Assembly (NCBI GenBank): GCA_947479455.1
Contig: CANJZE010000009.1
Location: 62,001-126,000, forward strand
Length of the DNA: 64,000 nucleotides
Origin: Bacteroidota bacterium
GTDB taxonomy: Bacteria; Bacteroidota; Bacteroidia; Chitinophagales; LD1
Direction: 5' to 3'
Shown in pieces: positions 5,502 to 48,783 of the stretch; the first letter of the stretch is position 1; every line of letters begins with the position of its first letter. Position numbers and translations under genes: made by a program. The notes under the pieces are model-generated. The model ran no database searches, was not told the DNA's origin, and saw only the letters and a list, made by a program, of their open reading frames with translations.

Positions 5502-7769
5502 TTAGTAAGTTCTCTCTAACACAAACCAGCTGAAAGCACGCAGGTTCAACTTCACCATTGAATCACGCAGCATCGGGTCTATTTTTTTCCAGGCGCGTTC
5601 TAAAATTGTTTTGGCTTCGCGCTCGCAAAGTTCAATCGCCTTTACTTTATCGAGTAATGAAACTGCTTCTGTAATTAGCGGAATGCTTTCTGTTTTCATA
5701 CTCACAATCTTCCACAAACGCGCGCGGTCTTTTTTATCAAGCAGGGCAAGTGCTTTTGCGATGGGGTAAGTAATTTTCCCCGCAGTAATGTCTTCGCCTT
5801 TTGTTTTCAAATGGTCTTTGAATCCTTTCAAGTTGAGTGTATCGTCAATTATCTGAAACGAAATACCGAGTGCTTCAAAATAATTCCCCATCGCTTCTGC
5901 CTGTTCATCGGTTCCTTCGCCAAGCAAAACACCAATGCGCGCTAAGTAAGCAGCCGGTGCGGCAGACTTTAAACGATGCGTTGCAATTACTCTCTTCTGC
6001 AAAAGCTTTGCTACTTCATCATCTTTCAATGCAGCGGGCATCATGTAATCGAGCCCGTAAATATCCATTGCCTGCCCGCTATGCGAAGCACGCATAGCTT
6101 CGAAGTAAGCATTGTAAATTTTCACTTTACCTTCGGCATATTTATCAATGTGGTAAATACAATACTGCCCGATGAAATACGCAGCCGTTCCGCTGTTGAT
6201 TGCCGTAGCTTCACCATGCACTATGTGCGCGGCAGGTCCGCCTCTGCGCACCGTAGATTTATCCTGCACATCATCTACCATCAATGAACCAACGTGCATC
6301 AATTCAGGAAGAGCAAGCCAATCAATTGCTATTTGAGAGTTTCCTCCAACTGCATCGCAACAAGCAATGGTGGCATAACTACGCCAACTCTTTCCGCTTC
6401 GGTCGGTTATTTCGCGAATTGGTTTAATGAACTTTTCGATGTACGCATTCTTATCGAGCCCTTCGGTTAAATGTTTGTTTCCTTTTTTAGAAACAAGTTC
6501 TTCAAACTTTTCCTGTGTAGGGTCAAGCGGTAAAATTTTGCGCACCGAAGCAAGTGTAGCTTTTGAAACAGCTTTCAAAAACTCTTTCATGTTGCTGCTG
6601 TTTACAAAACCGTGACGCTCTATGTAAGCAGGGCCGCTCACTTTTTTGCCTTTCATTTTTCCGGTTACGTTCATTCTTCCTTCCCAAAAAGCGGGTTTCG
6701 AAATTACGGTGGCAAACTCCTGATTCGGAAAAGCGGCATCGGCAATTACCGATAAACCAAAATCAGGAACATCTAATTTCCATGTAGAAGGATACTCGTT
6801 GAAGGTGCGTGTACTCGTCCACAATTCGCCAACGGGCTTCAACGAAAATTTTGTAGAGTAATAACGTTTGCCTGCTTTATCAATCATGATTATAAACGAG
6901 CCGCAGTCTTCACCGGTTTTTAAATCAATCAAATCATAAGCAGTGAGTTCGCAGCCGTTGTCAAGTTGCATCGCAATCCAATTCCACGAAACATCTTTTT
7001 TAGCTTCATCAATTTGCCCTTCTTTTCTTTCGGCATGGCAACCGAATTCATGGTCGTACCAACCGCTTGCCGATTTAATTTTTAGTTTTTCTTTTTTCAG
7101 CTTCAAAGTTCCCTTCACTTCGCAGCGTGGAATGAAATAGTAGAACATATCTTCTGCCGAAACTCCGCGCACCACTCCATTGTCTCCGTGACGCACGGGT
7201 GCTTTCTTCGGGTTAAAATTTACATCAACGCCTAACTTCAATTCTTTGTGAGCGAGATGAAGCTGATACGACCCGTCTTTTAATTTCTCAAACGTGTTGC
7301 CATCGTAATTCAAATTCAATTTGGTGTAAGAAATGGTTGGTGTTTTCTTCAGCAACTCATCGGGATAAGGCATTACACCTTTGCTCAACATTTCAATTCC
7401 TGCTCTGCGGATATAAGGGTCTTTTACCAGTTCGCCTTTTTTCAAACGCTCCAAACCGAGTTTTGGTGCGCGCTTATCTACCAATGAAACGGTGTGATAT
7501 TTTTTTTCCTTCAAATCGCTGATGCCCCAGATAACGGAGTGCCCGTAATCTGATTTGCCAGTAGCTTTATCGTAACTAATGGCGTGCTGAAAAAACGAAG
7601 CGAAGAGCGAAAATTCTCTTCCGTCTTCTACTTTTATATGGCTGTGCATATACCACCATTCGGTAGAGGAAGAAAGATGCGGCAGGTCGTGAATTTTTAA
7701 ATCAATGGGACCGTCCTTAGGCCAGTCGGCTGCGAAGAATTTAGAAGTAGAAGGAGACTTTTTTTTCAT
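5502..7769 (-). CDS. CrtC/AttH-like hydratase-fold domain fused to polyprenyl diphosphate synthase
   Basis: Two unrelated isoprenoid domains in one 755-residue frame. Residues 1-390 look like the CrtC/AttH lipocalin-like fold (carotenoid 1,2-hydratase family): STEWWYMHSHI (35-45), ASGWYDHEFG (234-243) and SWNWIAMQLDNGCELTAYDL (261-280) match its signature blocks. After a charged linker (about 392-440), residues 440-755 form a trans-isoprenyl diphosphate synthase: first Asp motif DDVQD (499-503) followed by RR (508-509), second DDTLN (642-646), GEDITAGKITYPIA (658-671), and GKSWRS (459-464) in place of the usual GGKRLRP. Small residues G494/S495 before the first Asp motif suggest a C20 or longer product. 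No signal peptide, so cytoplasmic. Predicted role: make a prenyl diphosphate and hydrate or cyclise it or a derivative. The architecture is clear; the reaction is inference. Confidence 0.88.
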   Translation of the reverse strand: MKKKSPSTSKFFAADWPKDGPIDLKIHDLPHLSSSTEWWYMHSHIKVEDGREFSLFASFFQHAISYDKATGKSDYGHSVIWGISDLKEKKYHTVSLVDKRAPKLGLERLKKGELVKDPYIRRAGIEMLSKGVMPYPDELLKKTPTISYTKLNLNYDGNTFEKLKDGSYQLHLAHKELKLGVDVNFNPKKAPVRHGDNGVVRGVSAEDMFYYFIPRCEVKGTLKLKKEKLKIKSASGWYDHEFGCHAERKEGQIDEAKKDVSWNWIAMQLDNGCELTAYDLIDLKTGEDCGSFIIMIDKAGKRYYSTKFSLKPVGELWTSTRTFNEYPSTWKLDVPDFGLSVIADAAFPNQEFATVISKPAFWEGRMNVTGKMKGKKVSGPAYIERHGFVNSSNMKEFLKAVSKATLASVRKILPLDPTQEKFEELVSKKGNKHLTEGLDKNAYIEKFIKPIREITDRSGKSWRSYATIACCDAVGGNSQIAIDWLALPELMHVGSLMVDDVQDKSTVRRGGPAAHIVHGEATAINSGTAAYFIGQYCIYHIDKYAEGKVKIYNAYFEAMRASHSGQAMDIYGLDYMMPAALKDDEVAKLLQKRVIATHRLKSAAPAAYLARIGVLLGEGTDEQAEAMGNYFEALGISFQIIDDTLNLKGFKDHLKTKGEDITAGKITYPIAKALALLDKKDRARLWKIVSMKTESIPLITEAVSLLDKVKAIELCEREAKTILERAWKKIDPMLRDSMVKLNLRAFSWFVLERTY

Positions 7770-16709: not shown

Positions 16710-19700
16710 TTATCGAATTAACGATACTGTTCCCTTCTTCTCTTTCACCTTGCCATTCAAATAAACTCCTTCTAAATAGTAAGTGTAAACTCCCGGATTT
16801 TGAACAACTCCTTTATACGTTCCGTCCCAACCTAACCATTGATTTTGGGAATCAAAAACCTTTTCGCCCCAACGATTAAAGATTTTCAAATTTGCTTTTG
16901 CCAATCCCGAACCATAAACGGTGAAGATATCATTGTTGCCGTCTCCATTGGGAGAAAAGGCATTCGGCACAAAAATATCATCGCCATTCCCTACATAGAC
17001 GGTAACTGTTTGCGAAACGCTGCAATCATGCAAATAATTTACGACTAAATTATAAAGTGTATGTGTGTAAGGCGAAGCCACCACCGAAGAACACTCGCCA
17101 CAATTCAATCCTGTGAGAGGCGACCACGAATAAAAATTGATATCGTTAGCTGTGTAATCACTGAGGTTCGAAACAAGCGTAATTGATTTCCCTAAATCAA
17201 TGATACTGTCCTGCGGCAAAATGGCAAGCGTTGGTTTCACCGGCTCATAAACAAACACGATGGTATCTTTCATACAACCTTGTCCGTCCTTTATATACAG
17301 ATGATAAGTTCCTGCACTTAAATTTTCAAACAACTCGCCCGATTGAAAATTAATCCCATCGGTTGAATAGGTATAAGCTACAGGAATACCCGGTGTGCCG
17401 CCTGTTCCTTCAATGTGAATAGAAGCATCGGAATATTGCGGGCAAGAAGCAGAGTCAATCGTGAGCAACGCAATGTCAATCAATGGTGGCGCGGTGAAAC
17501 TCGCGCTGAGAATTGTATCGCAACCATTATTATCAGCAACTGTTACTGTATAAGTTCCAGGAGCCAAATTGCTGATGATTGACGTGGTTGTGCTATTGCT
17601 CCAAACAAATCCTATTGGTGGAGTTCCTCCATTTACACTCGCTTCTACAGAACCATCCTGTGCATTCGCGCAACTTATTTCATGTTTATTAATGAGCAGC
17701 GCATTGAGCGAAGGAGGATTAGTAAGTGTAACACTTCCTTGTGTTGCGCAAAGATTTACATCCTGTACTACTACATCATACAATCCAGCAACAAGATTTG
17801 TTATCGTGCTGTTGTCGTTCGCTCCCGGTATAACCGACCAGTCATAAACATATCCCGCTGTTCCACCGTTTGCAGTAACGGTTGCAGTTCCTGTAGCATC
17901 ACCTGTGCAAAGCGGATCGGTGTGAGTGAAGGAAATAGTTACTGCTGTTGGTTCAGAAATAGTTGCGGTAGTTGTAGCTGTGCAATTTTTTGAATCGGTT
18001 ATAGTCACTAAATAATTTCCTGCAACAACACCATTCAAATCTTCAGTAGCAGCTAAATTGCTCCATACATAAGTATATGTTACAGTTCCGCCTGCGGCAG
18101 TAATATCAATAGCTCCGTTAGTTCCTCCATTGCAAATTTCATTGATTACAGAAGTTACGCTTACCGTCAATTGACTCGGTTCAGTAATAACAAACGAAGC
18201 AGTTGCTGTGCAAGCATTTAAATCAGTAACAGTTACCGATTGATTATTTGCAGCAAATCCTGAAGCAGGATTTGTAGTAGCTACAATATTGCTCCATGCA
18301 TAAGTATATGTTGGCGTTCCTCCGTTTACCGTTGCTGTTGCGCTTCCATCATTTCCTCCAAAACACGAAACGTTTGTAGATGCAGAAATGGAAACTGTCT
18401 GTAATGGCGGTTCAATCGCAGTCCATGATGATTGTGCGGTGCAACTGTTCGCATCTGTTGCAGTAACTATATAGGTGCCAGGCCCGAGATTCGTGTTTGG
18501 ATTTACAGTGCCACCAATATTCCAATTATAAGTAAACGCTCCTGTGCCGCCACTCGCTGTTGCAAGAACACTTCCGTTGTTGGCTCCAAAGCAAGTGATA
18601 TTAATTGTGTCAAGCACAATAAAAATTTGTGTTGGCTCAGTTATGTTGATGTTTCCAGAAACAGTTACACCCGCACTATCAGTTGCTGTTACTATATATA
18701 CTCCTGCACAAAGATTACTCACTACATTTCCGTTCGTGCCTTGGCTCCATGCAAAAGTGTAAGGAGAAATTCCACCTGTTGCAGAAACGGTTGAAGTGCC
18801 GTTGCAATAACCAAAGCAAAGATTACTCACTGTAACAAAGGTTAATTGAATCGGTGGCGGGTCGGTGACAACGGCAGTATCAAAAAGACAACATCCGTTT
18901 GCATCGCACACGGTTACATAATAAGTTCCTGCAAAAAGATTTTGAATGGTATCGTTTGTTGAACCTGTGTTCCAGCTGTAAGTGTAATTCGGAGTTCCTC
19001 CGTTAGCAATTACAAAAGCCCAACCTTCATTTCCACCGTTAGTAATTGCATTGAATGAAAGTGTATTGATAACCAAACTAATTGGCTGTGTGACACTTGC
19101 CGAACTTGTTGCTGTGCATCCTCGTGAATCAGTAACAGTCACTAAATAATTTCCGACACCAAGTCCGCTAATGGTTGCAGCGTTTGGCTCTGAAGGATTC
19201 CATAAGTAAGAATAATTTGGAGCGCCACCATTTGCAGTAACGGTTATCGTTCCGTTGCTAGAACCGTTGCAAGTAATGTTTTGTGCAACAGATGTTGCTG
19301 TTAACTGAGATGGAACACTCAAGGTTGCAGCAGCAGTTCCCGAGCATCCTTGTGAATCACTAATGCTCACGGTGTAAGTTCCTGCTCCAAGATTTTGTAT
19401 TGAATCAATTACAGGTCCTGTACTCCACGAATAATTTATTGGCGGAGTTCCGCCACCTGCAACTGCCACAATTTTTCCATCGGTTTGCCCGAAACAGGAA
19501 ATAGAATCTACAATCAAATTGATAGGAAGATTATTTCCGATAACCACATGCACGGTATCGTGAATCACACATGAACCTCCTGTTAGCGTAGCGAGATAAT
19601 CGGTAGAAACGTTTGGCGTAACAGAAAGTATGGCACCATTTCCTACAACTGAATTATTCGAAAGATTGCGCCATTCATACACGAAACTATTTCCCGGAAG

Positions 19701-22400
19701 TGGACTACCGGTAGTAGTAGTGGTAAGCAGCAAATTAGGTGGCGTGCAGAAAAAAGTATCGTCAGGGAAAGCATGAAACTGCACCGATGTATCAACATCA
19801 ACATAAACATAATCTTGCGTGTGACATCCGTTTAGTGCAGTCACATCTACATGATAAATGACAGGCGTTTCCGGATGTGAAACGGGATTATGAATGTTAT
19901 CAGGCACCACAGCATTAGCTCCTGAATTCGGAGTCCAGGAAATTGGCAGGTTGTCAATGTCAGTAACACATACAGTAAAAATTGTGTTTGGTCGTTTGGT
20001 AGAAGCTAGCGGAGTTCCAGTTACACCGCATTGAGAAGTTGGTCCTGCTGAATAATAAACAGAATTAAAGGCGGTTGGCGTGATGCGCATTCGATTATTC
20101 AGGATTGCAGCACCTGCAGGATTTGTAAAACAGATATCAATAACTAAGTTGGAAGTACCATCCCAATCGTACGGGAAATCAAGTTTATGAGTAATCCATC
20201 CATCAACAACTCCCAGCATTAATTTTTTAGGAGTAAAAACCGTTACCAAATTTGGCTGCCACAAAACCGGTGGAGTAGCGTTTGGTTCTACAGGAAGCGC
20301 AGTTGCCTGGGTGCACGACATTTTAATTTCAAAATTCATTAAAGAATCAATGTTGTTGTTCGTATGCACCATGTAAAATGAAATACTATCAATGGCTCCT
20401 CCAGAACCGATTTGTGCAATCAACTCGCTTTGCAAATACAAAAACTGATGTCGCGCACTGTTTTGGTAATGACCATAAATGGTTGGATATTGGGTGGGTG
20501 AATTGCTACTGAGCGTGGTGCCCGTTCCAATTTGTCCTTGTACCACGTGACCTACGCAAGGAGTATTACTAATGCCGCAACTTTGTGGATTTGCCACCAC
20601 ATTCAGATTTACCAAATCACCAGGGCAAACAACTAATGGTTGTGCCTTCGCTACAATGTTTGGTCCTGCTCCAGAAATATTTACAGTGAGCGAATCAACA
20701 TTGGTACAACCATTATCACCGCTGATATAACATTTGTATTCTGTGCTTCCGAGTGGACTTGCCACGGGGTTTGGAATAGTATCATTCGGCAAACCTGAAA
20801 CAGGATCAAATAAACCTGCTGATGGCACCCACTGAAAAGTATAAGGCGCATAAAGATTATCGGTAGTCGCATTTAAGTTCACTTGTCCGTTCAAACAAAC
20901 TGTTCCGCCTGGTCCTGCATCATAAATAAAAGGTGGTGCAGCATTTACAAACAACGAATCTGTTCCGCAATCGGAAGTGAAATAATACATGGTAGGTGTA
21001 ACCGGAGAAACAGAAGGTGTGTAACTCAAAGGATTTGAAACTGCATTGGGACCAACAGAAGGTGTCCATGTAAAATTGGTTCCGCCTGTAGCTGTTAATT
21101 GCACTGGCGTTCCGCAAAATGTAAGACTTGCCGAAAGCACCTGAACTTTAGTAAACACACAAATTGAATAAGCTCTTGTGTATCTTCCATTAATTGGGCA
21201 GTCGTTATTTTCTGCTGTTAAAATAAAATCGTGGCAACCGGTATCGCCTGGTAGAGGAGTCCATGTAATGTGTGCGGTTACGCTGTCGCCTGTGCCTATT
21301 TGTGTCATCAGTGCACCAGGTATAGCCGATGGAACGCTATTGATATTGCTGGTTAAAGTGATGCTGTGATTAGCAGGGTCATTACATTTTATGTCAAAAG
21401 TAAGCGGGGTGCCCGGGCAAACTATCACGTTCACTTGGCTCGCCTGAAAACCATTGGTTACATTTGAAATACTATCGGTATAAGGAATAGCAATGGTGCA
21501 CGGCAAAACAGCCACTTGCATATCGCGAATAGTAGTGCCTACTAAAACTCCATTTCTATATTCATTAACCTGAATGGCCAAAACATCTACTTCCTGATTT
21601 GGGCAGGTGTAACTAATTTGTCCTGTTGAAGAATCGAACTGAAAACTATTTGGCGGATTAGTGCTCATGGGTTGATTTGCTGACCAACTTCCTGCAAACG
21701 GAAGTGGGTTGTACCCTGCATTCAAAGGATTAATAAGTGTGTACGAAATTGAATCACCATCAACATCTACTGCACCGTTGTTGTAAGTAATCAGAGAATT
21801 TAAGCAAACAAATGGTACAGGCAGAGTAGAGAACGACACAGAACTATTGCAATACGGCAAACCCGTTATAGGGTCAATAGTGTTATTAATTAAGGATTGT
21901 ATACCAAAGCCAAGACCTCCTCCACCGGCATTTGCAAGATTGGTGATGGCTGCATTCCTGCAACAAGTATTTGTTCGCAAGTACCAACTATTGCAAGCAT
22001 AGGGTAGAGAAATGGTTCCTTCATATGTGTACATTTGTACCCCCGGATAAGTAGGTGGAGATGCTGTGGGATTTCCCGGGCAATTAGCTGGGTTTGCACA
22101 ACAGCTTTGACCCAACTGTGCAGGGCACAACTCCGAAACTTCGGTAGGTCCGGCTATTAAATCAACATTAAAATTTGTAACTGCGAAACCGGCACACCCA
22201 TCATAGAGTTCTACACTAAAGGAATTACCCGGGTCAATACCATAACAATCGCGGTAAATTTTTAGGGTTACTGTGTAATTATTATTTCCGGTGCACACAT
22301 ACGAAAGGTCTGAACCCATGATGTGCGAAGCGCGGCTCGCTGTGGGGTTAAACAACCACATTAAAAATGTAAGAGAAATAGTTTTGTAGAAATGCTTCAA
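16710..22400 (-). CDS. giant SprB-repeat surface adhesin, T9SS type B (locus 1)
   Basis: 1896 residues. The signal peptide ends at about residue 24 (ASRASHIMGSD; mature ASHIMG is a common start in this family). The first 960 residues or so form Ig-like and jelly-roll regions with many Cys (SCCANPANCPGN, NTCCRNA). Then come about ten tandem SprB repeats of 75-78 residues (roughly 960-1720), each with the pattern C-x-G-x-x-x-G ... Y-x-W-S ... G-x-Y-x-V-x-x-x-D-x-x-x-C. The last 90 residues (1807-1896) are the gliding-motility-associated C-terminal domain (IFVPNAFSPNGDGNND, FNRWGEKVF, GWDGTYKG, GTVSLIR). Predicted to be exported by T9SS and moved or anchored on the cell surface for gliding or adhesion. 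The downstream PorP is its likely partner. Confidence 0.95.
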   Translation of the reverse strand: MKHFYKTISLTFLMWLFNPTASRASHIMGSDLSYVCTGNNNYTVTLKIYRDCYGIDPGNSFSVELYDGCAGFAVTNFNVDLIAGPTEVSELCPAQLGQSCCANPANCPGNPTASPPTYPGVQMYTYEGTISLPYACNSWYLRTNTCCRNAAITNLANAGGGGLGFGIQSLINNTIDPITGLPYCNSSVSFSTLPVPFVCLNSLITYNNGAVDVDGDSISYTLINPLNAGYNPLPFAGSWSANQPMSTNPPNSFQFDSSTGQISYTCPNQEVDVLAIQVNEYRNGVLVGTTIRDMQVAVLPCTIAIPYTDSISNVTNGFQASQVNVIVCPGTPLTFDIKCNDPANHSITLTSNINSVPSAIPGALMTQIGTGDSVTAHITWTPLPGDTGCHDFILTAENNDCPINGRYTRAYSICVFTKVQVLSASLTFCGTPVQLTATGGTNFTWTPSVGPNAVSNPLSYTPSVSPVTPTMYYFTSDCGTDSLFVNAAPPFIYDAGPGGTVCLNGQVNLNATTDNLYAPYTFQWVPSAGLFDPVSGLPNDTIPNPVASPLGSTEYKCYISGDNGCTNVDSLTVNISGAGPNIVAKAQPLVVCPGDLVNLNVVANPQSCGISNTPCVGHVVQGQIGTGTTLSSNSPTQYPTIYGHYQNSARHQFLYLQSELIAQIGSGGAIDSISFYMVHTNNNIDSLMNFEIKMSCTQATALPVEPNATPPVLWQPNLVTVFTPKKLMLGVVDGWITHKLDFPYDWDGTSNLVIDICFTNPAGAAILNNRMRITPTAFNSVYYSAGPTSQCGVTGTPLASTKRPNTIFTVCVTDIDNLPISWTPNSGANAVVPDNIHNPVSHPETPVIYHVDVTALNGCHTQDYVYVDVDTSVQFHAFPDDTFFCTPPNLLLTTTTTGSPLPGNSFVYEWRNLSNNSVVGNGAILSVTPNVSTDYLATLTGGSCVIHDTVHVVIGNNLPINLIVDSISCFGQTDGKIVAVAGGGTPPINYSWSTGPVIDSIQNLGAGTYTVSISDSQGCSGTAAATLSVPSQLTATSVAQNITCNGSSNGTITVTANGGAPNYSYLWNPSEPNAATISGLGVGNYLVTVTDSRGCTATSSASVTQPISLVINTLSFNAITNGGNEGWAFVIANGGTPNYTYSWNTGSTNDTIQNLFAGTYYVTVCDANGCCLFDTAVVTDPPPIQLTFVTVSNLCFGYCNGTSTVSATGGISPYTFAWSQGTNGNVVSNLCAGVYIVTATDSAGVTVSGNINITEPTQIFIVLDTINITCFGANNGSVLATASGGTGAFTYNWNIGGTVNPNTNLGPGTYIVTATDANSCTAQSSWTAIEPPLQTVSISASTNVSCFGGNDGSATATVNGGTPTYTYAWSNIVATTNPASGFAANNQSVTVTDLNACTATASFVITEPSQLTVSVTSVINEICNGGTNGAIDITAAGGTVTYTYVWSNLAATEDLNGVVAGNYLVTITDSKNCTATTTATISEPTAVTISFTHTDPLCTGDATGTATVTANGGTAGYVYDWSVIPGANDNSTITNLVAGLYDVVVQDVNLCATQGSVTLTNPPSLNALLINKHEISCANAQDGSVEASVNGGTPPIGFVWSNSTTTSIISNLAPGTYTVTVADNNGCDTILSASFTAPPLIDIALLTIDSASCPQYSDASIHIEGTGGTPGIPVAYTYSTDGINFQSGELFENLSAGTYHLYIKDGQGCMKDTIVFVYEPVKPTLAILPQDSIIDLGKSITLVSNLSDYTANDINFYSWSPLTGLNCGECSSVVASPYTHTLYNLVVNYLHDCSVSQTVTVYVGNGDDIFVPNAFSPNGDGNNDIFTVYGSGLAKANLKIFNRWGEKVFDSQNQWLGWDGTYKGVVQNPGVYTYYLEGVYLNGKVKEKKGTVSLIR

Positions 22401-29817: not shown

Positions 29818-32800
29818 CTACCTGATTAAAGTTACTGTGCCAATTTTCTCATCCTTCTTATCATTTAAGAAAGTGACTTTGGCTATGTAAGTAAATACTT
29901 GCGGTGTTTGCAACTGCCCTTTGTAAGTACCATCCCAACCTTCCAATTGGTTATTTGTTTTATAAACCAATTCTCCCCAGCGGTTAAAAATTTTTACGTC
30001 CACTAATTTTATATCCTCCCCGTAAACCAAGAACATATCATTGTTGCCATCGCCATTTGGACTAAACGAATTTGGAACAAAAACAGGCTTATGCGGTTCA
30101 ACCTCCACATGCAACATAGCAGTTGTATAACAAGTTGATGTGCCGTGTTCAATGCTAACAGTAACTAAATAATCTCCGGTGCGATATGCACTTGCTACAG
30201 GATTAGCGCAATCGATACAACTCAACCCTTCAGCAGGGGTCCAACTAAAACTTGGATTAGTGGCGTTTTGATAAGAGACTTGCACCTGGTGTGCTTCGCC
30301 TAAAGGAAGAACAACCGTATCCGGATTCACCGTTGCAAGAATCGGAAGAGGTTCAAGCACTAGCACAGGTATATCGCTTTCGCAACCATTAAAACTAACA
30401 GCATGAATGGTATGGGCACCTGCTGTAAGAAAATAAAAATCACCGGAGTATTGCAAATTTCCACCGTCAACAGAATATTGATAAGGTCCATTTTGAATAG
30501 AAGTAGTGAGTATATGCGCTGCGCCATCCATGTATTGTTCTCCGTAGCAACTGGTAGAATCGGCCGAAGCAATAAACGAATCAACGGTTGCATTAGGCAC
30601 ACTGACCGTATCGGTTTTGGTGCAGCCATTGTTATCTGAAACAATAATTATGTAATCGCCAATTGTTAGACCGGGAATAAGTCCGGCATTGGCAAAAATG
30701 AAATTTGACCCATCCAATGTGGCAGCATAAGTATATGGAGAAGTTCCACCTTGCGCATCAACAGTTATGGTTCCGTTAGCATCGCCAATGCACTTTACCG
30801 GAGTAACCGAAGTATTAAAAGTCATATCTGCCGGTTCGTTTACCACACCGGCTGCAGTGGTTATACAACCGCTTTGGTCAGTTACTGTGCAAGAATAAAG
30901 GCCCATAGTAAGTCCAAAAATAGAAGAAGTGGTTCCAAGATTTATCCATAAATAAGTATAGGGTAAGGTTCCACCAGTAGCGGTAACTGTAGCACTTCCG
31001 GTTGGCGAACCATAGCATACCGCATTGGTGGTAACAACTGAAGCAGAAAATATGGAAGGTTCTGTAATGGTAAATGTTTGCGAAGCAGTGCAGTTGTTTC
31101 CATCGGTTGCAGTAACTGTTACAGAACCGGCTGGCAAACCAATTGCAGTCACACCTGTCTGCCCGGCATAATCCCACAAGTAGGTATATGGAGGTGCAAT
31201 TCCTGGCGTGCCACCGGTGGCAACTACTGTTTCAGTTCCATTACTGCCACCATTACAGCTCACAGCAGTTTGCGAAACTTCGGTAATTGAAATTGCTGAA
31301 GGTTCAGTTATCGTAAAATTAATATTGAGTGTACAGTTAGCGTCAGCTATAATTACAAAAGGGGTTCCAGCACTAACACCTGTTAATGTTGTGTTAGTAG
31401 TTGCAGGATTTCCATTCCAGCTATAAGAATAAGGTGGTGTGCCACTGGTTACGTTTACCGTAGCCGTGCCATCACTTCCTCCATTGCAAGAAGTGTTTGT
31501 AGAACTTTGCGTAGCGGTTAGCGGTGTAATAGCTGTAATTGCATACGTAGCCGTAACCGTGCACGCGTTTGCATCGGTCACTGTTAAATTATAATTATCA
31601 ACGGCTAGAGAAGTTATAGCTGAATCAATAAAGGTTTGACCATTTGATTGCTCCACCCAACTATAGGTATAAGCTACCGTTCCTCCTGCTACGTGAGCAG
31701 TAATAGAACCGTTGTTTCCGCCTGCACATCCAATCGTAACTACATCAGCCGAAGTGATAACTAAAGGAGTTGGCTCATTGATAGTATAGGATGCTGTTGC
31801 CGTGCATGTGTTTTGATCAGTGGCAATTACAGAATAAGTTCCTGCAATCAAATTGACAGCGGCATTTCCGGTTTGCGCATTAGACCAACCCGGTGAAATA
31901 GCTCCTGTTCCACCGCTGGTTGTAATATTTATTGCTCCATTGTTTCCTCCGTTGCATAGTACGTCAATAGTGTTAACCAAAGCAATACTCACCGCTGTTG
32001 GTTCAGAAAGTGTGAACGTTGCTGTAGCGGAACAATTAGCATCAGTAATGGTCACGTTGACAGTGGCGGCAGTAACACCGGTTAATGTTCCGTTAAGTGT
32101 GGCTCCTGTACCATTCCAATCATAATTATAGGGAGCGGTACCGGTGGTTACACTTATTGTGGTTGTGCCATTGCTGCCACCATTACATGTCGGGTCAACT
32201 TGCGACTGTGTAAATGTAAGCGGAGTTACAGCGGTAATCTGGTAACTGCCCGTAACGGAACAAGCATTGGCATCGGTAAGAGTTAAGTTGTAAGTATCAG
32301 GTAAAAGACCACTAATAGAAGAACCCGAATAAACCTGACTGTTCGATAAACGAACCCAATTATAATTTAGGTTTGGAGTTCCTCCAGATGCAAACACATC
32401 AATATTTCCAGTTACGGCTCCGCTGCAACCTATATTTACCACGTTGGTTGAATCTATAACAAGTTGAGTTGGCTGTGTAATGTTGTAGGTTGCGCTGGCA
32501 GTACAACCTGTTCCATCATCTACTAATAAAGAATATGCTCCTGCTATAAGCGCGCTGGCGGTAGCCGTATTTTGTAAATTGCTCCAGGCATAAGTATAAG
32601 AACCACTTCCTCCACTCACACTTATGGCCACACTTCCGGTATTATTGCCAAAGCAATTTACATTGGTAACAACAGGATTATTAATAGCCACATTATTTCC
32701 TCCTATATTAATCGTTAGCGTAGCATTGTCACTAGCTGTGCAACCACGTTGGTCGGTAACAGTTACCGTGTAGTTTGCAGGAGCAACTCCGTTAAGTACT

Positions 32801-34137
32801 GAATCTGTTTGCGCACCCCCTGTCCAGGCATACGAATAAACATAAGTGCCGCCAGTTACAGTTGCAGTTAATGTGCCGGTACCCGCACCAGAGCAATTCG
32901 TTTGACTTACATCAGGCACATTCACCACCAGTTGTGTTGGCTCTGTAATAACTACAGTATCTGTACGTGTACATGCAAGGGCATCGGTAGCTGTAAAAAC
33001 ATAAGTGCCCGCTGATAATCCGTTTCGTGTAAGTGTAGTTGGTCCGTCTGTCCAACCATAATTCAATGGAGGGTTTGCAGTTGTTGCTGAAACTGTAACC
33101 GAGCCGTTTGTACCACCAAAGCAGGAAACATTTTGAACAGCCGTTGTAGAAACCTGAAGTGTGCCGGCAAGATTAACGTTTACATCATCTGTAACTACTA
33201 CAGGCGTACCACCTGCACAAGGCAGATAAGTTGCCTTAGCAGTATAAGTTGTGTTACTACCTGGGCAAACATTTACAGTTGCACCTGTTCCTATTGGTGT
33301 TGCTCCATTAAACCAATCAATTGTAACAATCGAAGGGCCATTAGGTGTAAATCGCCATCCTTCGTTTGTGGCATTCCAAACATTGTTATTTCTTCCTGCT
33401 GCCACATAGGCGGTGGTTCCGTTTGCATCCTGAATTCCCAAAGTAGCTAAACCATCGTTCCAACCAGTACAGGCTTCTTTGTCTTTTATGTAAACCTCTA
33501 TTGCATTTGTTGTTTCATACAAAACAATTTGGTGTGTAGCTTCGGTAGTTCCCCAGCAGGAACCGATTAAAAAAATGTCATCGAACATAGGAACTTGATA
33601 ATACGACACCACAAAAATTCTGCATGGAGCAGTGCCAATAATCTGGTACTTAATTGTCCCTCCCAAAGAAGGATCAATATCATGGTACGGGCCCATGATC
33701 GAATTTGTATAGAGTGTGGGAGTAGGAAGTGTAGGGTTCGGTGCTCCGGTTGTTGCCCACGCACAAGTGCCTCCTGCTTCCGAAATATCAAACGTTATTA
33801 ACCCATTTGCTCCAACCACCACCTGCGTGTAAGCCGAATCAAAAAAGCAAAAAGTAAATGGCAGATTAATTACACTAGACCAAATATCATCAATGTTTAC
33901 CAATATAGGAGTTCCGGCAGTATATGAAAATGGAGTGTAAGGAATTGAAGAAACACCGTAAGTTGAAGTATTGCCCGAGTTGAAATAAGTGGCGGTCAAA
34001 TTGGTACAATTGGTTCCGCAGGGCAAGGTTACATCGCCTCCCGCATTTACCTGTGGACATCCCGGTTGAGCGTTGGCAACAGTAAAAAATGAAAGAATAA
34101 TAGAAGCTAAAAGGAATCGGATGTAAAATCGCTTCAT
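29818..34137 (-). CDS. SprB-repeat surface adhesin, T9SS type B (locus 2)
   Basis: 1439 residues. Signal peptide MKRFYIRFLLASIILSFFTVANAQ; an N-terminal jelly-roll-like domain of about 320 residues (SSVINLPFTFCFFDSAYTQVVVGANGLITF, NEGWRFTPNG); then about twelve SprB repeats (roughly 350-1265); a PKD-like linker; and the type B sorting domain in the last 90 residues (FVPNSFSPNGDGNNDMFLVYG, FNRWGELVY, GWDGTYKG, GTVTLIR). Repeats 4-6 and 7-9 resemble each other as blocks, pointing to duplication of a three-repeat module. Predicted role: exported adhesin or gliding track protein. Its PorP/SprF partner is upstream (34276-35301), but a terminator lies between, so each has its own transcript. Confidence 0.95.
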   Translation of the reverse strand: MKRFYIRFLLASIILSFFTVANAQPGCPQVNAGGDVTLPCGTNCTNLTATYFNSGNTSTYGVSSIPYTPFSYTAGTPILVNIDDIWSSVINLPFTFCFFDSAYTQVVVGANGLITFDISEAGGTCAWATTGAPNPTLPTPTLYTNSIMGPYHDIDPSLGGTIKYQIIGTAPCRIFVVSYYQVPMFDDIFLIGSCWGTTEATHQIVLYETTNAIEVYIKDKEACTGWNDGLATLGIQDANGTTAYVAAGRNNNVWNATNEGWRFTPNGPSIVTIDWFNGATPIGTGATVNVCPGSNTTYTAKATYLPCAGGTPVVVTDDVNVNLAGTLQVSTTAVQNVSCFGGTNGSVTVSATTANPPLNYGWTDGPTTLTRNGLSAGTYVFTATDALACTRTDTVVITEPTQLVVNVPDVSQTNCSGAGTGTLTATVTGGTYVYSYAWTGGAQTDSVLNGVAPANYTVTVTDQRGCTASDNATLTINIGGNNVAINNPVVTNVNCFGNNTGSVAISVSGGSGSYTYAWSNLQNTATASALIAGAYSLLVDDGTGCTASATYNITQPTQLVIDSTNVVNIGCSGAVTGNIDVFASGGTPNLNYNWVRLSNSQVYSGSSISGLLPDTYNLTLTDANACSVTGSYQITAVTPLTFTQSQVDPTCNGGSNGTTTISVTTGTAPYNYDWNGTGATLNGTLTGVTAATVNVTITDANCSATATFTLSEPTAVSIALVNTIDVLCNGGNNGAINITTSGGTGAISPGWSNAQTGNAAVNLIAGTYSVIATDQNTCTATASYTINEPTPLVITSADVVTIGCAGGNNGSITAHVAGGTVAYTYSWVEQSNGQTFIDSAITSLAVDNYNLTVTDANACTVTATYAITAITPLTATQSSTNTSCNGGSDGTATVNVTSGTPPYSYSWNGNPATTNTTLTGVSAGTPFVIIADANCTLNINFTITEPSAISITEVSQTAVSCNGGSNGTETVVATGGTPGIAPPYTYLWDYAGQTGVTAIGLPAGSVTVTATDGNNCTASQTFTITEPSIFSASVVTTNAVCYGSPTGSATVTATGGTLPYTYLWINLGTTSSIFGLTMGLYSCTVTDQSGCITTAAGVVNEPADMTFNTSVTPVKCIGDANGTITVDAQGGTSPYTYAATLDGSNFIFANAGLIPGLTIGDYIIIVSDNNGCTKTDTVSVPNATVDSFIASADSTSCYGEQYMDGAAHILTTSIQNGPYQYSVDGGNLQYSGDFYFLTAGAHTIHAVSFNGCESDIPVLVLEPLPILATVNPDTVVLPLGEAHQVQVSYQNATNPSFSWTPAEGLSCIDCANPVASAYRTGDYLVTVSIEHGTSTCYTTAMLHVEVEPHKPVFVPNSFSPNGDGNNDMFLVYGEDIKLVDVKIFNRWGELVYKTNNQLEGWDGTYKGQLQTPQVFTYIAKVTFLNDKKDEKIGTVTLIR

Positions 34138-44478: not shown

Positions 44479-47400
44479 TTAACGCAAGAGCGTTACATTT
44501 CCTTTCTTAAAAAACTTCTCCCCGCTTTCGCAAAGACCTTCGCAATACCAGCCAAAAACAGCCGGGTCAATTTTCTTTCCTTTAAAATTTCCATCCCAAC
44601 CTTTGGTTATGTCGTGTGTTTCAAAAACTTTCTGTCCCCAACGATCATACACAGCAAAATAAAGTTTGGTGATGCTATTGCCGCGCACATACAATACATC
44701 ATTCTTTCCATCGTTGTTCGGTGAAAAAGCATTGGGTATGTAGAGATTTGATTCGGCACATGGCGTATGAAGGATGTAAACCCAAACACTATCGGTTTTT
44801 CTGCAACCATTTTCGTCCTGAACTTGCACCACGTAAACGTGATTGTCATAAGGAGTAGCAACCGGATTTGTAATGTCAATTGCACTTAATGTTGAATCGG
44901 CTTGCCACATCAACCAAATTGCATTCGAAGAATCTGCATTGAGTTGCGAAGAGCCACCCCAGGTTATTGTATCAGGATTTGCAGTGGCAATAACATTTGC
45001 CTGCGAAGAGAACACGTTCACCACAGTTGAATCAATGTAGCGACAATGCAAAGCATTTTCTGCGGTTACAATAAATGTTGTTGTGTTCGAAGCAAAAACT
45101 GTAGGGCTGTTTGTTGAATCACCGCTCAAAATATTTGCGTTCGGTTTCCAATCGTAAACTAAAGGCAATGAATTATAATGGCTAACGAGCAATCGAATAT
45201 TTCCTCCCGAACAAATCACAGTATCGCCAATAGCATGAATCGAATCTTTGTAAACGTTCACTGTTTGAAAAATTGAATCGCTGCAAATTCCATTGGAAAT
45301 AATCAGCAAGTAAGTAGTCGTATCTTTTGGAAAAGCACTAGGATTTGAAATAGAAGAATTAGTAAGTGTAGTTGCAGGCTGCCAATGATAAGTGAGCACC
45401 GTATCGTTAGTCACAAAACCAATTTGTGCCGAATCATTTAAGCAAATTGTTTTTGCAGGCAATGAATAAGTAGTATCAGATAGAAGAATAAGTTGCTTAG
45501 TTACCGAATCAATTTTATTGCAGGCGTTGTTGTCGCGCACAATCAAGGTGACGTTATACAGGTTCGAAGAAGTATACGTGTGCGAAGGATTTTGCAAAGT
45601 GGAAGTTGTGCCATCACCAAAATGCCATTCGTAAGTTGCGGTTCCGCTTGCATTGCTGGTGTTATTGAACTGCGCGCTATACGGTGTGCAACCGGATGGT
45701 GGTGGAATAAAATCAGCATTTGCAATTGGTGGTGAAGATGGGAATGTAACAGTTACAGAATCGGTAAAAAAGCAATGTTGTGCAGTTTCAACAGTTACAT
45801 AAAAAGTAGTGTTGGTCAACGGAACAGCTAATGGATTTGCAGTATTTGCTCCCGCAATAATTAGAGAAGACGGAGTCCATGTGTAATTGATAAATGAATT
45901 TCCGGTGCTGCTTACGACCGAAAGCACAATCGTATCTCCGTGGCAAAGAAGACTTGTTGATGTTGCGTTAATCGTATCAATTACGTTCAACACTTTTTGA
46001 ATAAATGTATCGGTGCAAAGTCCGTTTGATATCAATAACTGATAGGTGGTGTTCTGTGTAGTATTGCTGAACGGATTGGAAACATTAGGTGGCGAAAGTG
46101 TACTGCTCGGATTCCAGAAATAATGAAACGAGGTATCGGGATTTGCGGGCAAACCAATTTGAACCGATTGAGAAACACACTTTGTGATGGCGGGAATTGT
46201 ATCGCGTGCATGATTCGCCACGATTAAAATTTGTTTGGTAATTGTATCGCTGCTATTGCAACTTGCAGGGTCTATTACTACTAACTGAATGGTATAGAGC
46301 CCAGCCTGCGTATATGTATGTGATGGGTTGAATTGCGTGGAAGTTCCTCCATCGCCAAAAGTCCATTGATAAGTTGGCGACAAAACAACTTTACTTGTAT
46401 TAGTAAACGAAGCAGTGAAAGGCGCACAAGCAGTCGGTGGCGCGGCAAAATCAGCTGCCACTAAAGGCAAATCTAAACTGAATTTAAAAACGGCATTGTT
46501 GCAATTATAACTATTGTTGGTTTGAGAAACCGCACCGGCAGTTGTAGGAAACGTACTTACACCGCCACAGCCTGCACAAACAGATTGGTACATAATTCCC
46601 TTCCTATCAAAACGCGAAGTTCCCCCATCCACATGCTCTTCGGCATTCGGGCTTCCGAAGTAGGTTGCATACGAAAGTGCCGAAGCATCATCTTCCAAAA
46701 CCATTACATAAAAATCTTTTCCGTCAGTGGTGTTTTGATATGCATCGGGAGTAATATCTAGTCCGGCTGTGGTTAAACGAGGCTCAGCGGCAGCACCCAC
46801 AAGCGGATACGAACCCCAACCACTTACATACATTTTGTTGCATACATCTACCAAGAAAGCAGTAGGCGAAATATCGGGCGTGCTATCGCCTCTTCCAAAT
46901 GCTGTTGACCAAATTATGGAATCGAGAAGCGGTGTAATTTTACTGATGAACTGTCCGCTGCTTGGTCGGTTGTAAATAGCATTCTTGATAAAAGTATTTC
47001 CCGTAGCCGCAGTTTGCCCAAGCACATAAACGTTTCCCGTTTTGCTGGTTTCTACAAAATAAATTTGGTCGTAAGCAGGCGACCCATAATAAGTAGCCTG
47101 AAAAAGTTGATTGCCGTTTTTGCTCAAGTGCGCAATAAAACCATCGGCTCTTCCACCTAAGTTTGTTCCTTGAATAACCCCTGCCGTTGCCGGAAAATTT
47201 TGTGATTGTGTTCCTCCGGAAACATACAAATCATCATTGCCATCAAAGGTTACTGAATAAATAGCATCATCATCACTTCCTCCAATGTAAGTGGACCAAA
47301 TTAGGTTAGTGAGGTTATTATCTAGTTTTATAATTACGCCTTCCATCAATCCAGCACTGGTAGTTTGATAAGCCCCGGGTGTAGTTGGAAAATTTGTGGA

Positions 47401-48783
47401 GCGCGTGCAAGTAGCTATATAAACGTTATTATTTTTATCAATGTCAATTTCACCTCGCACCTCATCGGCATAATTAAAATGCAAGCCAGCATATTCGGGA
47501 TAAGTTAGTCCGTCATTTCCTGTACCTCCTAAATAGGTGGAAGCAAGCAGTGCGGTTCCATTTGGATTGAAACGCGTAATGATAATATCGGAACCCGTTA
47601 AATAATGAACGGCAAGCCCTGTAAAAACGCCAGGGTTGATTCCACCATTGAAAGAAGTATCGTAAGCATTTGGCGTAACAGGAAAATTACTGGATGCTGT
47701 TGTGCCGAACACAAACAATTCATCGTTGGTGTTCACCACCAAACTATGTGGCAAATCATCATGATTGCCTCCAAGGTAAGTGGAATAAATGCGTTGCGTT
47801 CCTGCTGAATCATACTTGGTGATTCCAATATCAGTTCCTGTTCCACTTCTGTTCGAAGCGTTGTTGTAACCCAATCCACCTGCCCATGTAGTTTGAAACG
47901 CGCCAACCGTTGTAGGAAAAAAATCTCCTGCAAAATTGAAAACGCTTCCTGCGGCATACACTTCCCCGCGGCTATCATAAGTAGCAGAGTAACCAAAGTT
48001 ATCAGCCGTTGAACCACTAAAGGTCGAAAAAATCAAAGTAGGGTCAATCACTAAATCAAAATTTTTGTCGTAACCATCAGGAAAAGAAAATGAAACTTTT
48101 TCGCCTTTCAATTCATATGCACATTTCACTTCTTTCTTTTCACCGTTGATAATTTGATATGCGTATGGATTCATCTCTACCACATCACCTACCGAAGTTT
48201 TAATTCTCAATTGCGCGTTCTCTTTTAAAACTTCACTAGCACCTTCGTAACGAATTGTAATGTTTTGGGCATCTGCATTTTTCTTCACCACAAAATCATA
48301 CTTCATATTTCCATCGGCAGAATATACTTTAAGGTCAATACCGTTGTAAATATTTTCGTAACCAATTTGATGAAAAGCATTTACGCCTGCCGCCCAATGT
48401 TTCGGGTCGTTGCCCAAGTAATAATTGAAATACTCTTTCAGTTTTTCACCACCAACTATTTTGCAATTCGTATTTGCATTTTCAAAAACAGCACGAAATG
48501 CATGAGTATGAATGGTAGGGTCTAAGTCGGGTTTGTATTCTATATGTCTGTGCAAATCGTGGCGAAGGCGTTTCATGTCTTCTTCGCTTGCTAACAAGTA
48601 GGTGAAATTATTTTGACAGAAAAAGACATGCGCGTTCGGCATTTCGAGTTTGTAGTGAACCTCATTATGCCATTGCCCTTTATTCTCAGTAAAATACAAA
48701 CTACGGCATGAAGCGCAAAACTCCGCAGCATTGATTTTGCTGTGTAAGAGAAGCAGAATTAAAAACGGGTAAAATTTTTTCAT
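44479..48783 (-). CDS. PKD-repeat adhesin with SBBP-type propeller, T9SS type B (locus 3)
   Basis: 1434 residues. Signal peptide MKKFYPFLILLLLHSKINAA; then the DUF7948-type N-terminus (YFTENKGQWHNEVHYKLE, GIDLKVYSADGNMKYDFVVKKNADAQNI); then an SBBP-like seven- or eight-bladed propeller with repeated S-T-Y-L/I-G-G (YSTYLGGNHDD, ASTYLGGTGND, WSTYIGGSDDD). Two clear PKD domains follow (FTASFTNTSK ... YQWTFGDGGTST and YSAQFNNTS ... YEWHFGDGTTST), with Cys-containing Ig-like segments between and after them. The last 90 residues are the gliding-motility-associated sorting domain (YIPNAFSPNNDGKND, YDRWGQKVFE, GWDGNFKG, GNVTLLR). Surface protein exported by T9SS with the PorP encoded ten bases downstream. 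Confidence 0.94.
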   Translation of the reverse strand: MKKFYPFLILLLLHSKINAAEFCASCRSLYFTENKGQWHNEVHYKLEMPNAHVFFCQNNFTYLLASEEDMKRLRHDLHRHIEYKPDLDPTIHTHAFRAVFENANTNCKIVGGEKLKEYFNYYLGNDPKHWAAGVNAFHQIGYENIYNGIDLKVYSADGNMKYDFVVKKNADAQNITIRYEGASEVLKENAQLRIKTSVGDVVEMNPYAYQIINGEKKEVKCAYELKGEKVSFSFPDGYDKNFDLVIDPTLIFSTFSGSTADNFGYSATYDSRGEVYAAGSVFNFAGDFFPTTVGAFQTTWAGGLGYNNASNRSGTGTDIGITKYDSAGTQRIYSTYLGGNHDDLPHSLVVNTNDELFVFGTTASSNFPVTPNAYDTSFNGGINPGVFTGLAVHYLTGSDIIITRFNPNGTALLASTYLGGTGNDGLTYPEYAGLHFNYADEVRGEIDIDKNNNVYIATCTRSTNFPTTPGAYQTTSAGLMEGVIIKLDNNLTNLIWSTYIGGSDDDAIYSVTFDGNDDLYVSGGTQSQNFPATAGVIQGTNLGGRADGFIAHLSKNGNQLFQATYYGSPAYDQIYFVETSKTGNVYVLGQTAATGNTFIKNAIYNRPSSGQFISKITPLLDSIIWSTAFGRGDSTPDISPTAFLVDVCNKMYVSGWGSYPLVGAAAEPRLTTAGLDITPDAYQNTTDGKDFYVMVLEDDASALSYATYFGSPNAEEHVDGGTSRFDRKGIMYQSVCAGCGGVSTFPTTAGAVSQTNNSYNCNNAVFKFSLDLPLVAADFAAPPTACAPFTASFTNTSKVVLSPTYQWTFGDGGTSTQFNPSHTYTQAGLYTIQLVVIDPASCNSSDTITKQILIVANHARDTIPAITKCVSQSVQIGLPANPDTSFHYFWNPSSTLSPPNVSNPFSNTTQNTTYQLLISNGLCTDTFIQKVLNVIDTINATSTSLLCHGDTIVLSVVSSTGNSFINYTWTPSSLIIAGANTANPLAVPLTNTTFYVTVETAQHCFFTDSVTVTFPSSPPIANADFIPPPSGCTPYSAQFNNTSNASGTATYEWHFGDGTTSTLQNPSHTYTSSNLYNVTLIVRDNNACNKIDSVTKQLILLSDTTYSLPAKTICLNDSAQIGFVTNDTVLTYHWQPATTLTNSSISNPSAFPKDTTTYLLIISNGICSDSIFQTVNVYKDSIHAIGDTVICSGGNIRLLVSHYNSLPLVYDWKPNANILSGDSTNSPTVFASNTTTFIVTAENALHCRYIDSTVVNVFSSQANVIATANPDTITWGGSSQLNADSSNAIWLMWQADSTLSAIDITNPVATPYDNHVYVVQVQDENGCRKTDSVWVYILHTPCAESNLYIPNAFSPNNDGKNDVLYVRGNSITKLYFAVYDRWGQKVFETHDITKGWDGNFKGKKIDPAVFGWYCEGLCESGEKFFKKGNVTLLR

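Follow-up and report, generated by a model that had tools for sequence, protein, structure and literature searches.

The 64-kb window, the whole stretch of DNA analysed here, carries on its minus strand a 755-codon gene (5502..7769; ATG at 7769, stop codon at 5502-5504, no internal stops) in which an AttH/CrtC-type domain is joined to a polyprenyl diphosphate synthase. The uninterrupted fusion frame described in an earlier note is thereby confirmed, and the domains are found by Pfam: PF07143, the 'CrtC N-terminal lipocalin domain' (residues 36-243; 7041..7664, E 2.4e-18), PF17186, Lipocalin_9 (residues 257-385; 6615..7001, E 5.8e-20), and PF00348 (residues 447-704; E 1.6e-43), all minus-strand features that score far beyond curated cut-offs. 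An AlphaFold model and matches to the solved structures 2ich and 7a0q delimit a two-barrel lipocalin-like (AttH-type) N-terminal domain at residues ~13-392 (6594..7733, minus strand), and PF00348 together with the structure 1wy0 delimits the C-terminal trans-polyprenyl diphosphate synthase at residues ~394-755 (5505..6590, minus strand). The N-terminal motifs that had been pointed out, EWWYMH (residues 37-42), GWYDHEFG (236-243), and WNWIAMQLDNG (262-272), are all present, and the synthase motif DDVQD lies at 499-503. The gene is present as a single copy in the host genome (G000; 3.76 Mb, 95.9% complete).

The neighbours in the window are ordinary genes, for 3-hydroxyacyl-CoA dehydrogenase, aldehyde dehydrogenase, ScpB, DUF4160, YdeI/OmdA, HlyIII, and a beta-lactamase-like protein. 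Elsewhere in the window there are very large repeat-domain proteins (16710-22400, 29818-34137, and 44479-48783), which by eye have gliding/type IX-type C-terminal ends, each adjoined by a PorP/SprF-like gene, also recognised by eye.

Conservation and distribution of the fusion

The earlier note had singled out independent assemblies as the place where two separate genes might come to light, and the fusion survives that comparison, with a single frame retained in independent metagenome assemblies at 98% (L004), 97% (L005), and 87% (L006) identity. A scan of the genome collection found 65 loci encoding relatives, and at least 59 distinct near-full-length homologues have the two domains in a single frame. 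Purifying selection on each half is strong, with dN/dS of about 0.01-0.06: relative to L004 the values are 0.014 for the N-terminal half, 0.026 for the C-terminal half, and 0.066 for the linker, and relative to L006 they are 0.059 and 0.047 for the N- and C-terminal halves, respectively. One homologue, in Flavobacterium sp. Root935 (L065, 7947-10219), has a frame change near residue 417 that puts the halves in different frames, and this break may be a sequencing error or a decayed gene. It is the one observation in favour of an assembly artefact or a chance joining of two genes, a possibility that we regard as negligible, given that independent assemblies and isolates supply 59 distinct homologues with an unbroken frame and that dN/dS is far below 1 throughout both halves and the linker; two genes fused by assembly error are ruled out by the same independent assemblies and signs of selection.

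Pairwise divergence in the two halves is strongly correlated (Mantel r 0.944, a value reached by 0 of 2000 permutations), which excludes frequent domain swapping, although common ancestry accounts for the correlation more than a functional link does. The N-domains of all 58 fusions in the tree form one clade relative to 27 stand-alone AttH-like proteins (support 0.991). For the synthase domains, a quick tree with the two most divergent fusions included recovers no clean single clade (low support), and a single fusion event is thus backed by the N-terminal half only. As judged from these comparisons, the fusion is real, old, and conserved, with its halves inherited together across phyla.

Listing the genomes that share the fusion, as the earlier note had proposed, places the 59 homologues in several bacterial phyla, with single-frame full-length homologues in at least five. 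The close relatives are in Bacteroidota metagenome-assembled genomes (MAGs), several with the label Chitinophagales or Sphingobacteriales. In the host's own family the gene is present in 24 of 30 genomes (20 intact frames and four cut at contig ends), and 20 of the 23 PF17186 matches in that family lie in the fusion; the 31 other genomes of the order contain one full fusion and one 28-residue fragment. Homologues with 42-67% identity occur in Saprospirales, Flavobacterium, Telluribacter, Myxococcota, a Verrucomicrobia MAG, and the cyanobacterium Iningainema, and distant fusions reside on plasmids of Tolypothrix (35% identity) and Streptomyces canus (28%). A further Bacteroidota genome codes for a 25% identical fusion with the identical three Pfam domains (L116, 415-2598, minus strand), and frames of 697-735 amino acids in three more genomes (G176, G383, and G393) resemble additional members. 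A MAG labelled 'Thermoplasmata' (L058) also carries the fusion, but its contig is 70% GC and the sequence groups weakly with Myxococcota, so we do not count it as an archaeal occurrence. Searches among phage sequences and viral structures returned unfused distant prenyl synthases and one distant fold resembling the N-terminal half, with no fusion among them.

The Verrucomicrobia copy is nested within a Bacteroidota group, beside that of a Bacteroidetes MAG (L063; tree support 100/99), and the two have an upstream glycosyltransferase gene in common; together, these two observations suggest that a cassette was transferred horizontally. On Streptomyces plasmids, a stand-alone synthase with 37% identity to the C-terminal half (L101, 11959-12984) and a full fusion (L099, 11986-14229) are both adjoined by a divergent ABC ATPase/permease pair, which suggests that the AttH-type half was gained or lost within one locus type. 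A Nitrosomonas stercoris plasmid (L100, 11365-13314) codes for a 649-amino-acid protein whose synthase half is related but whose N-terminal part matches no Pfam model; a ferredoxin-NADP reductase gene follows.

An AttH-type barrel and a prenyl diphosphate synthase

The AlphaFold model, built with 51 family members as input (mean pLDDT 89, pTM 0.86), presents the N-terminal half as a beta double barrel. Its closest solved fold is AttH NE1406 (2ich; Z 35.8 over 303 residues, rmsd 2.4), and it also matches kievitone hydratase (7a0q; Z 32.7 over 301 residues, rmsd 3.0); these are likewise the only two solved families found with its sequence profile, 2ich at E 3e-29 and 7a0q at E 1.6e-12. The hallmarks of AttH/DUF2006-type double lipocalins are all found, namely PF07143 and PF17186 in tandem, two barrels, and the EWWY and WxD motifs. 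Residue D239 (7053..7055, minus strand), the proposed general acid, aligns with an Asp of both AttH and kievitone hydratase; in conservation counts taken over 58 fusion proteins, the WxD core including D239 is retained in 57, with Glu in place of this Asp in the remaining one. By both sequence and model, the N-terminal half is thus an AttH/kievitone-hydratase-type double barrel with the family Asp in its conserved place. Neither relative is a full parallel: AttH NE1406 is a stand-alone protein, whereas the N-terminal half is joined to a synthase, and kievitone hydratase, although sharing the fold and an aligned WYD motif, is a secreted, single-domain, detoxifying enzyme of fungi with ~17% identity to the N-terminal half.

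The domain had been described as CrtC/AttH-like, of which the AttH part stands and the CrtC part does not. We took as reference the CrtC encoded in the Roseobacter litoralis photosynthesis cluster (L152, 10801-11673), which scores 1.3 bits against the N-domain profile, compared with 192 for Agrobacterium AttH. Conversely, the CrtC equivalog NF045922 gives 521 bits with R. litoralis CrtC and no match to the N-terminal half of the fusion. R. litoralis CrtC itself has no PF07143 match below E 0.01, whereas AttH matches strongly, and the Pfam name 'CrtC' for PF07143 is misleading for annotation. Four residues of CrtC, His239, Trp241, Tyr266, and Asp268 in Rubrivivax numbering, are essential by mutation, and Asp268 has been proposed to act as the acid, with protonation by the Asp (PMC4717167). 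With two aligners, the CrtC 'GYFD' is aligned to the fusion 'GWYD' such that Asp268 corresponds to D239, while His239, Trp241, and Tyr266 correspond to D207, F209, and W237; an initial placement of His239 and Trp241 on Y210 and F212 was superseded when the real R. litoralis CrtC was aligned. Only one of the four catalytic residues is therefore identical, and since the other three are replaced, we regard the N-terminal half as AttH-type and not a true CrtC, and the CrtC mechanism is not simply transferable. A true CrtC acting on carotenoids is ruled out by these replacements, the lack of an NF045922 match, and the missing carotenoid pathway of the host (see below).

Conservation within the barrel gives a mixed picture. 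Residues F212, P214, F323, and P359 are near-invariant in the fusions and missing from stand-alone Bacteroidota AttH-like proteins, as expected if the cavity had changed with a new role. D239 and most of the conserved N-domain residues are common to stand-alone AttH proteins, and their conservation is thus no proof of terpene chemistry.

The structural matches also raise the alternative that the N-terminal half removes or ionises the (di)phosphate, acting as a metal-independent class I-like lyase that yields a terpene or terpene alcohol. Structures of 25-phosphosteroid lyase (9g4c, 9g2i, and 9fzn) are among the Foldseek matches (E ~2e-9), and in the pathway of this enzyme a tertiary isoprenoid phosphate loses its phosphate by elimination (PMC8449060); the glycosyl- and sulfotransferases that adjoin the fusion in some relatives would moreover be well matched to a free hydroxyl. 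The match is loose, however (TM 0.26 by query and 0.50 by target, rmsd ~11), and far weaker than those to AttH and kievitone hydratase, and no phosphate-binding residues were identified, so that we consider a lyase quite unlikely. That 25-phosphosteroid lyase is not among the 50 VIA-align structural matches listed is neutral either way.

In the C-terminal half, the PF00348 match spans profile positions 4-249 of 251, from which we take the synthase domain to be complete, and the modelled half superimposes on the GGPP synthase 1wy0 with Z 36.9 and rmsd 2.1 over 326 residues. Both Asp-rich motifs noted previously are there, with a correction to the second: the first is DDVQD (residues 499-503; 6261..6275, minus strand; D499, D500, and D503 in 58/58 fusions), whereas the second is DDTLN, of the DDxxN form (residues 642-646; 5832..5846, minus strand; D642 and D643 in 58/58, N646 in 57/58). 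R508 and R509 are invariant in all 58. The GKSWRS segment, which had been regarded as an altered FARM-side motif, was over-read, because it keeps both the Lys of the canonical GGKRxRP and the Arg three positions further on (K+3). This IPP-binding Lys/Arg motif, K460-R463 (GKSWR; 6381..6392, minus strand), is the family norm (K460 in 57 and R463 in 58 of the 58 fusions) and therefore no anomaly of the host copy. By sequence and structure, the C-terminal half is accordingly a trans-prenyl diphosphate synthase that is complete and lacks none of the motifs for binding metal and substrate.

The product of the synthase is probably C20, possibly slightly longer. Three features underlie this prediction: the residues ahead of the first Asp-rich motif are small (G494 in 57 and S495 in 56 of the 58 fusions); the C-terminal half lacks the aromatic floor that FPP synthases have before this motif; and its best matches among solved sequences are the plant and human GGPP synthases. 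The profile and structure searches that the earlier note had recommended thus lead to AttH and kievitone hydratase for one half and to GGPP synthases for the other.

A complete and typical synthase half is also what would be seen in an ordinary chain-elongating prenyl synthase, making a quinone or cell-wall lipid tail and carrying an accessory domain. The host, however, has two other prenyl synthase genes elsewhere in its genome, which can cover housekeeping needs, most fusion-bearing genomes likewise have two others, and the fusion is missing from six of the 30 family members and from nearly all other families of the order; such patchy presence indicates that it is not a housekeeping gene, and we think an ordinary synthase very improbable.

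Host metabolism and gene neighbourhoods

The absence of terpene and carotenoid genes nearby, remarked on in the earlier note, holds in the window and extends to the 95.9% complete host genome, in which we detected neither a phytoene/squalene synthase (PF00494; the search was positive in 7 of 14 controls) nor a squalene-hopene cyclase (PF13243); the N-terminal half is consequently not expected to serve carotenoids or squalene of the host's own making. A supply of IPP does exist: the host has a mevalonate-pathway decarboxylase-like gene, as we take it to be from its 83% identity to a neighbour of the fusion in L028 that was recognised by eye. Genes presumably of the mevalonate type, also recognised by eye, lie divergently upstream of the fusion in three relatives (L006, L007, and L028). 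In the host's genus, no biosynthetic neighbours of the fusion were seen within the 64-kb window, and glycosyltransferase partners are absent or represented by weak matches, which are perhaps other GT28-type enzymes.

Elsewhere, the fusion is accompanied by candidate tailoring genes. Two Telluribacter species have, in one direction, genes for a GT28-type glycosyltransferase, the fusion, an LMF1-like protein, an FkbM methyltransferase, and two P450s, with gaps of 14-17 bp across the first four genes (L038, 6773-16160). The Bacteroidetes MAG L063 has the order glycosyltransferase-fusion-LMF1-P450, together with a second protein of the P450 cluster; the order is glycosyltransferase-fusion-HMG-CoA synthase in the Verrucomicrobia MAG and fusion-glycosyltransferase in Iningainema. 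Plasmids of Tolypothrix PCC 7601/7712 carry one annotated gene of 4530 bp (L098, 9676-14205; L102, 5676-10205), coding for a 1509-amino-acid chain in the order sulfotransferase-glycosyltransferase-AttH-type domain-synthase; it lies between ABC exporter genes (a membrane fusion protein and DevC), with IS701 transposases near. The 'self-contained route' to an isoprenoid envisaged in the earlier note is doubtful as a general statement, because tailoring genes adjoin the fusion in several relatives.

The neighbourhoods also bear on whether the N-terminal half is an enzyme at all. It could be a non-catalytic lipocalin-type carrier or chaperone, which would bind what the synthase makes, a hydrophobic molecule, and pass it on to a transporter or an enzyme in the membrane. 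ABC genes do adjoin the fusion in several lineages: in L031, L051, and L068 it is followed by genes for an MlaE permease and an ABC ATPase, in addition to the Streptomyces pair and to DevC and an ATPase in Tolypothrix. The lipocalin/calycin-like fold, the suggestion of ligand binding for AttH NE1406 (PMC2954199), and the loss of three CrtC catalytic residues would fit such a role; against it, the WxD core with D239 is kept in all but one of the 58 fusions, and the superfamily members CrtC, kievitone hydratase, PenF, and AsqC each act as enzymes (PMC6013536). We consider a carrier role unlikely.

A putative bifunctional isoprenoid enzyme

The reading we favour, with confidence a little above even, is a bifunctional isoprenoid enzyme in which the synthase half makes a prenyl diphosphate and the N-terminal half hydrates or cyclises it by means of an Asp acid. 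The C-terminal half would condense IPP with an allylic diphosphate to a prenyl diphosphate of C20 or slightly longer, which, held near by the covalent link, would enter the N-terminal barrel; D239 would then donate a proton to a C=C bond, in line with the mechanism put forward for CrtC and by analogy with squalene-hopene cyclase, and the cation would either react with water, which amounts to hydration, or close a ring. The terpene alcohol or cyclic prenyl diphosphate formed in this way may be finished by a lineage-specific glycosyltransferase, P450, methyltransferase, or sulfotransferase, and where tailoring enzymes are missing, as at the host locus, the product of the N-terminal half may be used as such.

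We infer the hydration or cyclisation of the synthase product by analogy. Kievitone hydratase, of the solved relatives the nearest whose reaction is known, hydrates a double bond in an isoprenoid side chain, and CrtC, which hydrates carotenoids, also has some activity on the C20 alcohol geranylgeraniol (PMC6013536). In PaFS, a fungal chimera, the greater part of the GGPP is retained on the enzyme to be cyclised (PMC8190136). A hydroxyl introduced by hydration would, in addition, explain the glycosyl- and sulfotransferases beside the fusion.

The parallel with fungal bifunctional enzymes drawn in the earlier note, with an unrelated N-terminal fold, is borne out: in fungal chimeric terpene synthases (PTTS, such as the fusicoccadiene synthase PaFS), a C-terminal prenyl synthase is likewise combined with an N-terminal, product-consuming terpene synthase domain (PMC8307374, PMC8190136). 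The PTTS N-domain, however, is an alpha-helical class I terpene synthase, unlike the beta-barrel AttH-type domain here, and PTTS are described as fungi-only (PMC8307374), whereas the hosts of the fusion are bacteria. Bacterial class II/class I diterpene cyclase-synthases (CseDCS), reported in 2024, resemble the fusion as multi-domain proteins that carry out consecutive terpenoid steps in one chain, but neither of their domains is a prenyl synthase or AttH-type (PMC11469919).

The bifunctional copalyl diphosphate synthase PvCPS offers another comparison, its prenyl synthase half having been matched in our structure search (8v0f and 6v0k). PvCPS consists of a class II cyclase of the helical beta-gamma fold and a prenyl synthase, and proton-initiated chemistry is expected of both its N-domain and that of the fusion. 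The fusion has no Pfam match to the helical beta-gamma domain of class II terpene cyclases (SHC/CPS), and its model is a beta-barrel.

The individual parts, an AttH-type domain and a prenyl synthase, are already known; our literature search, which left most subscription journals and preprints outside its reach, found no paper describing their fusion. NCBI names for such proteins refer to the synthase half only ('polyprenyl synthetase family protein'), and pipelines seeking helical cyclases would therefore pass them over. It is conceivable, and we advance it tentatively, that the fusions are terpene cyclases or hydratases of a new class, in which the Asp acid of an AttH fold acts on the prenyl diphosphate of its own synthase as an independent counterpart of the fungal chimeras, and that the Tolypothrix chain builds, modifies, glycosylates, and sulfates a terpenoid. 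Should the AttH-type half turn out to be a cyclase, the fusion would be categorically new. A conserved bacterial family that has the PTTS layout but an unrelated beta-barrel as its second domain would have solved the task independently and would offer genome mining a new starting point. As the fused synthase points to a class of substrate, the fusion also provides a direct handle on the widespread AttH-type proteins, a family without a known reaction.
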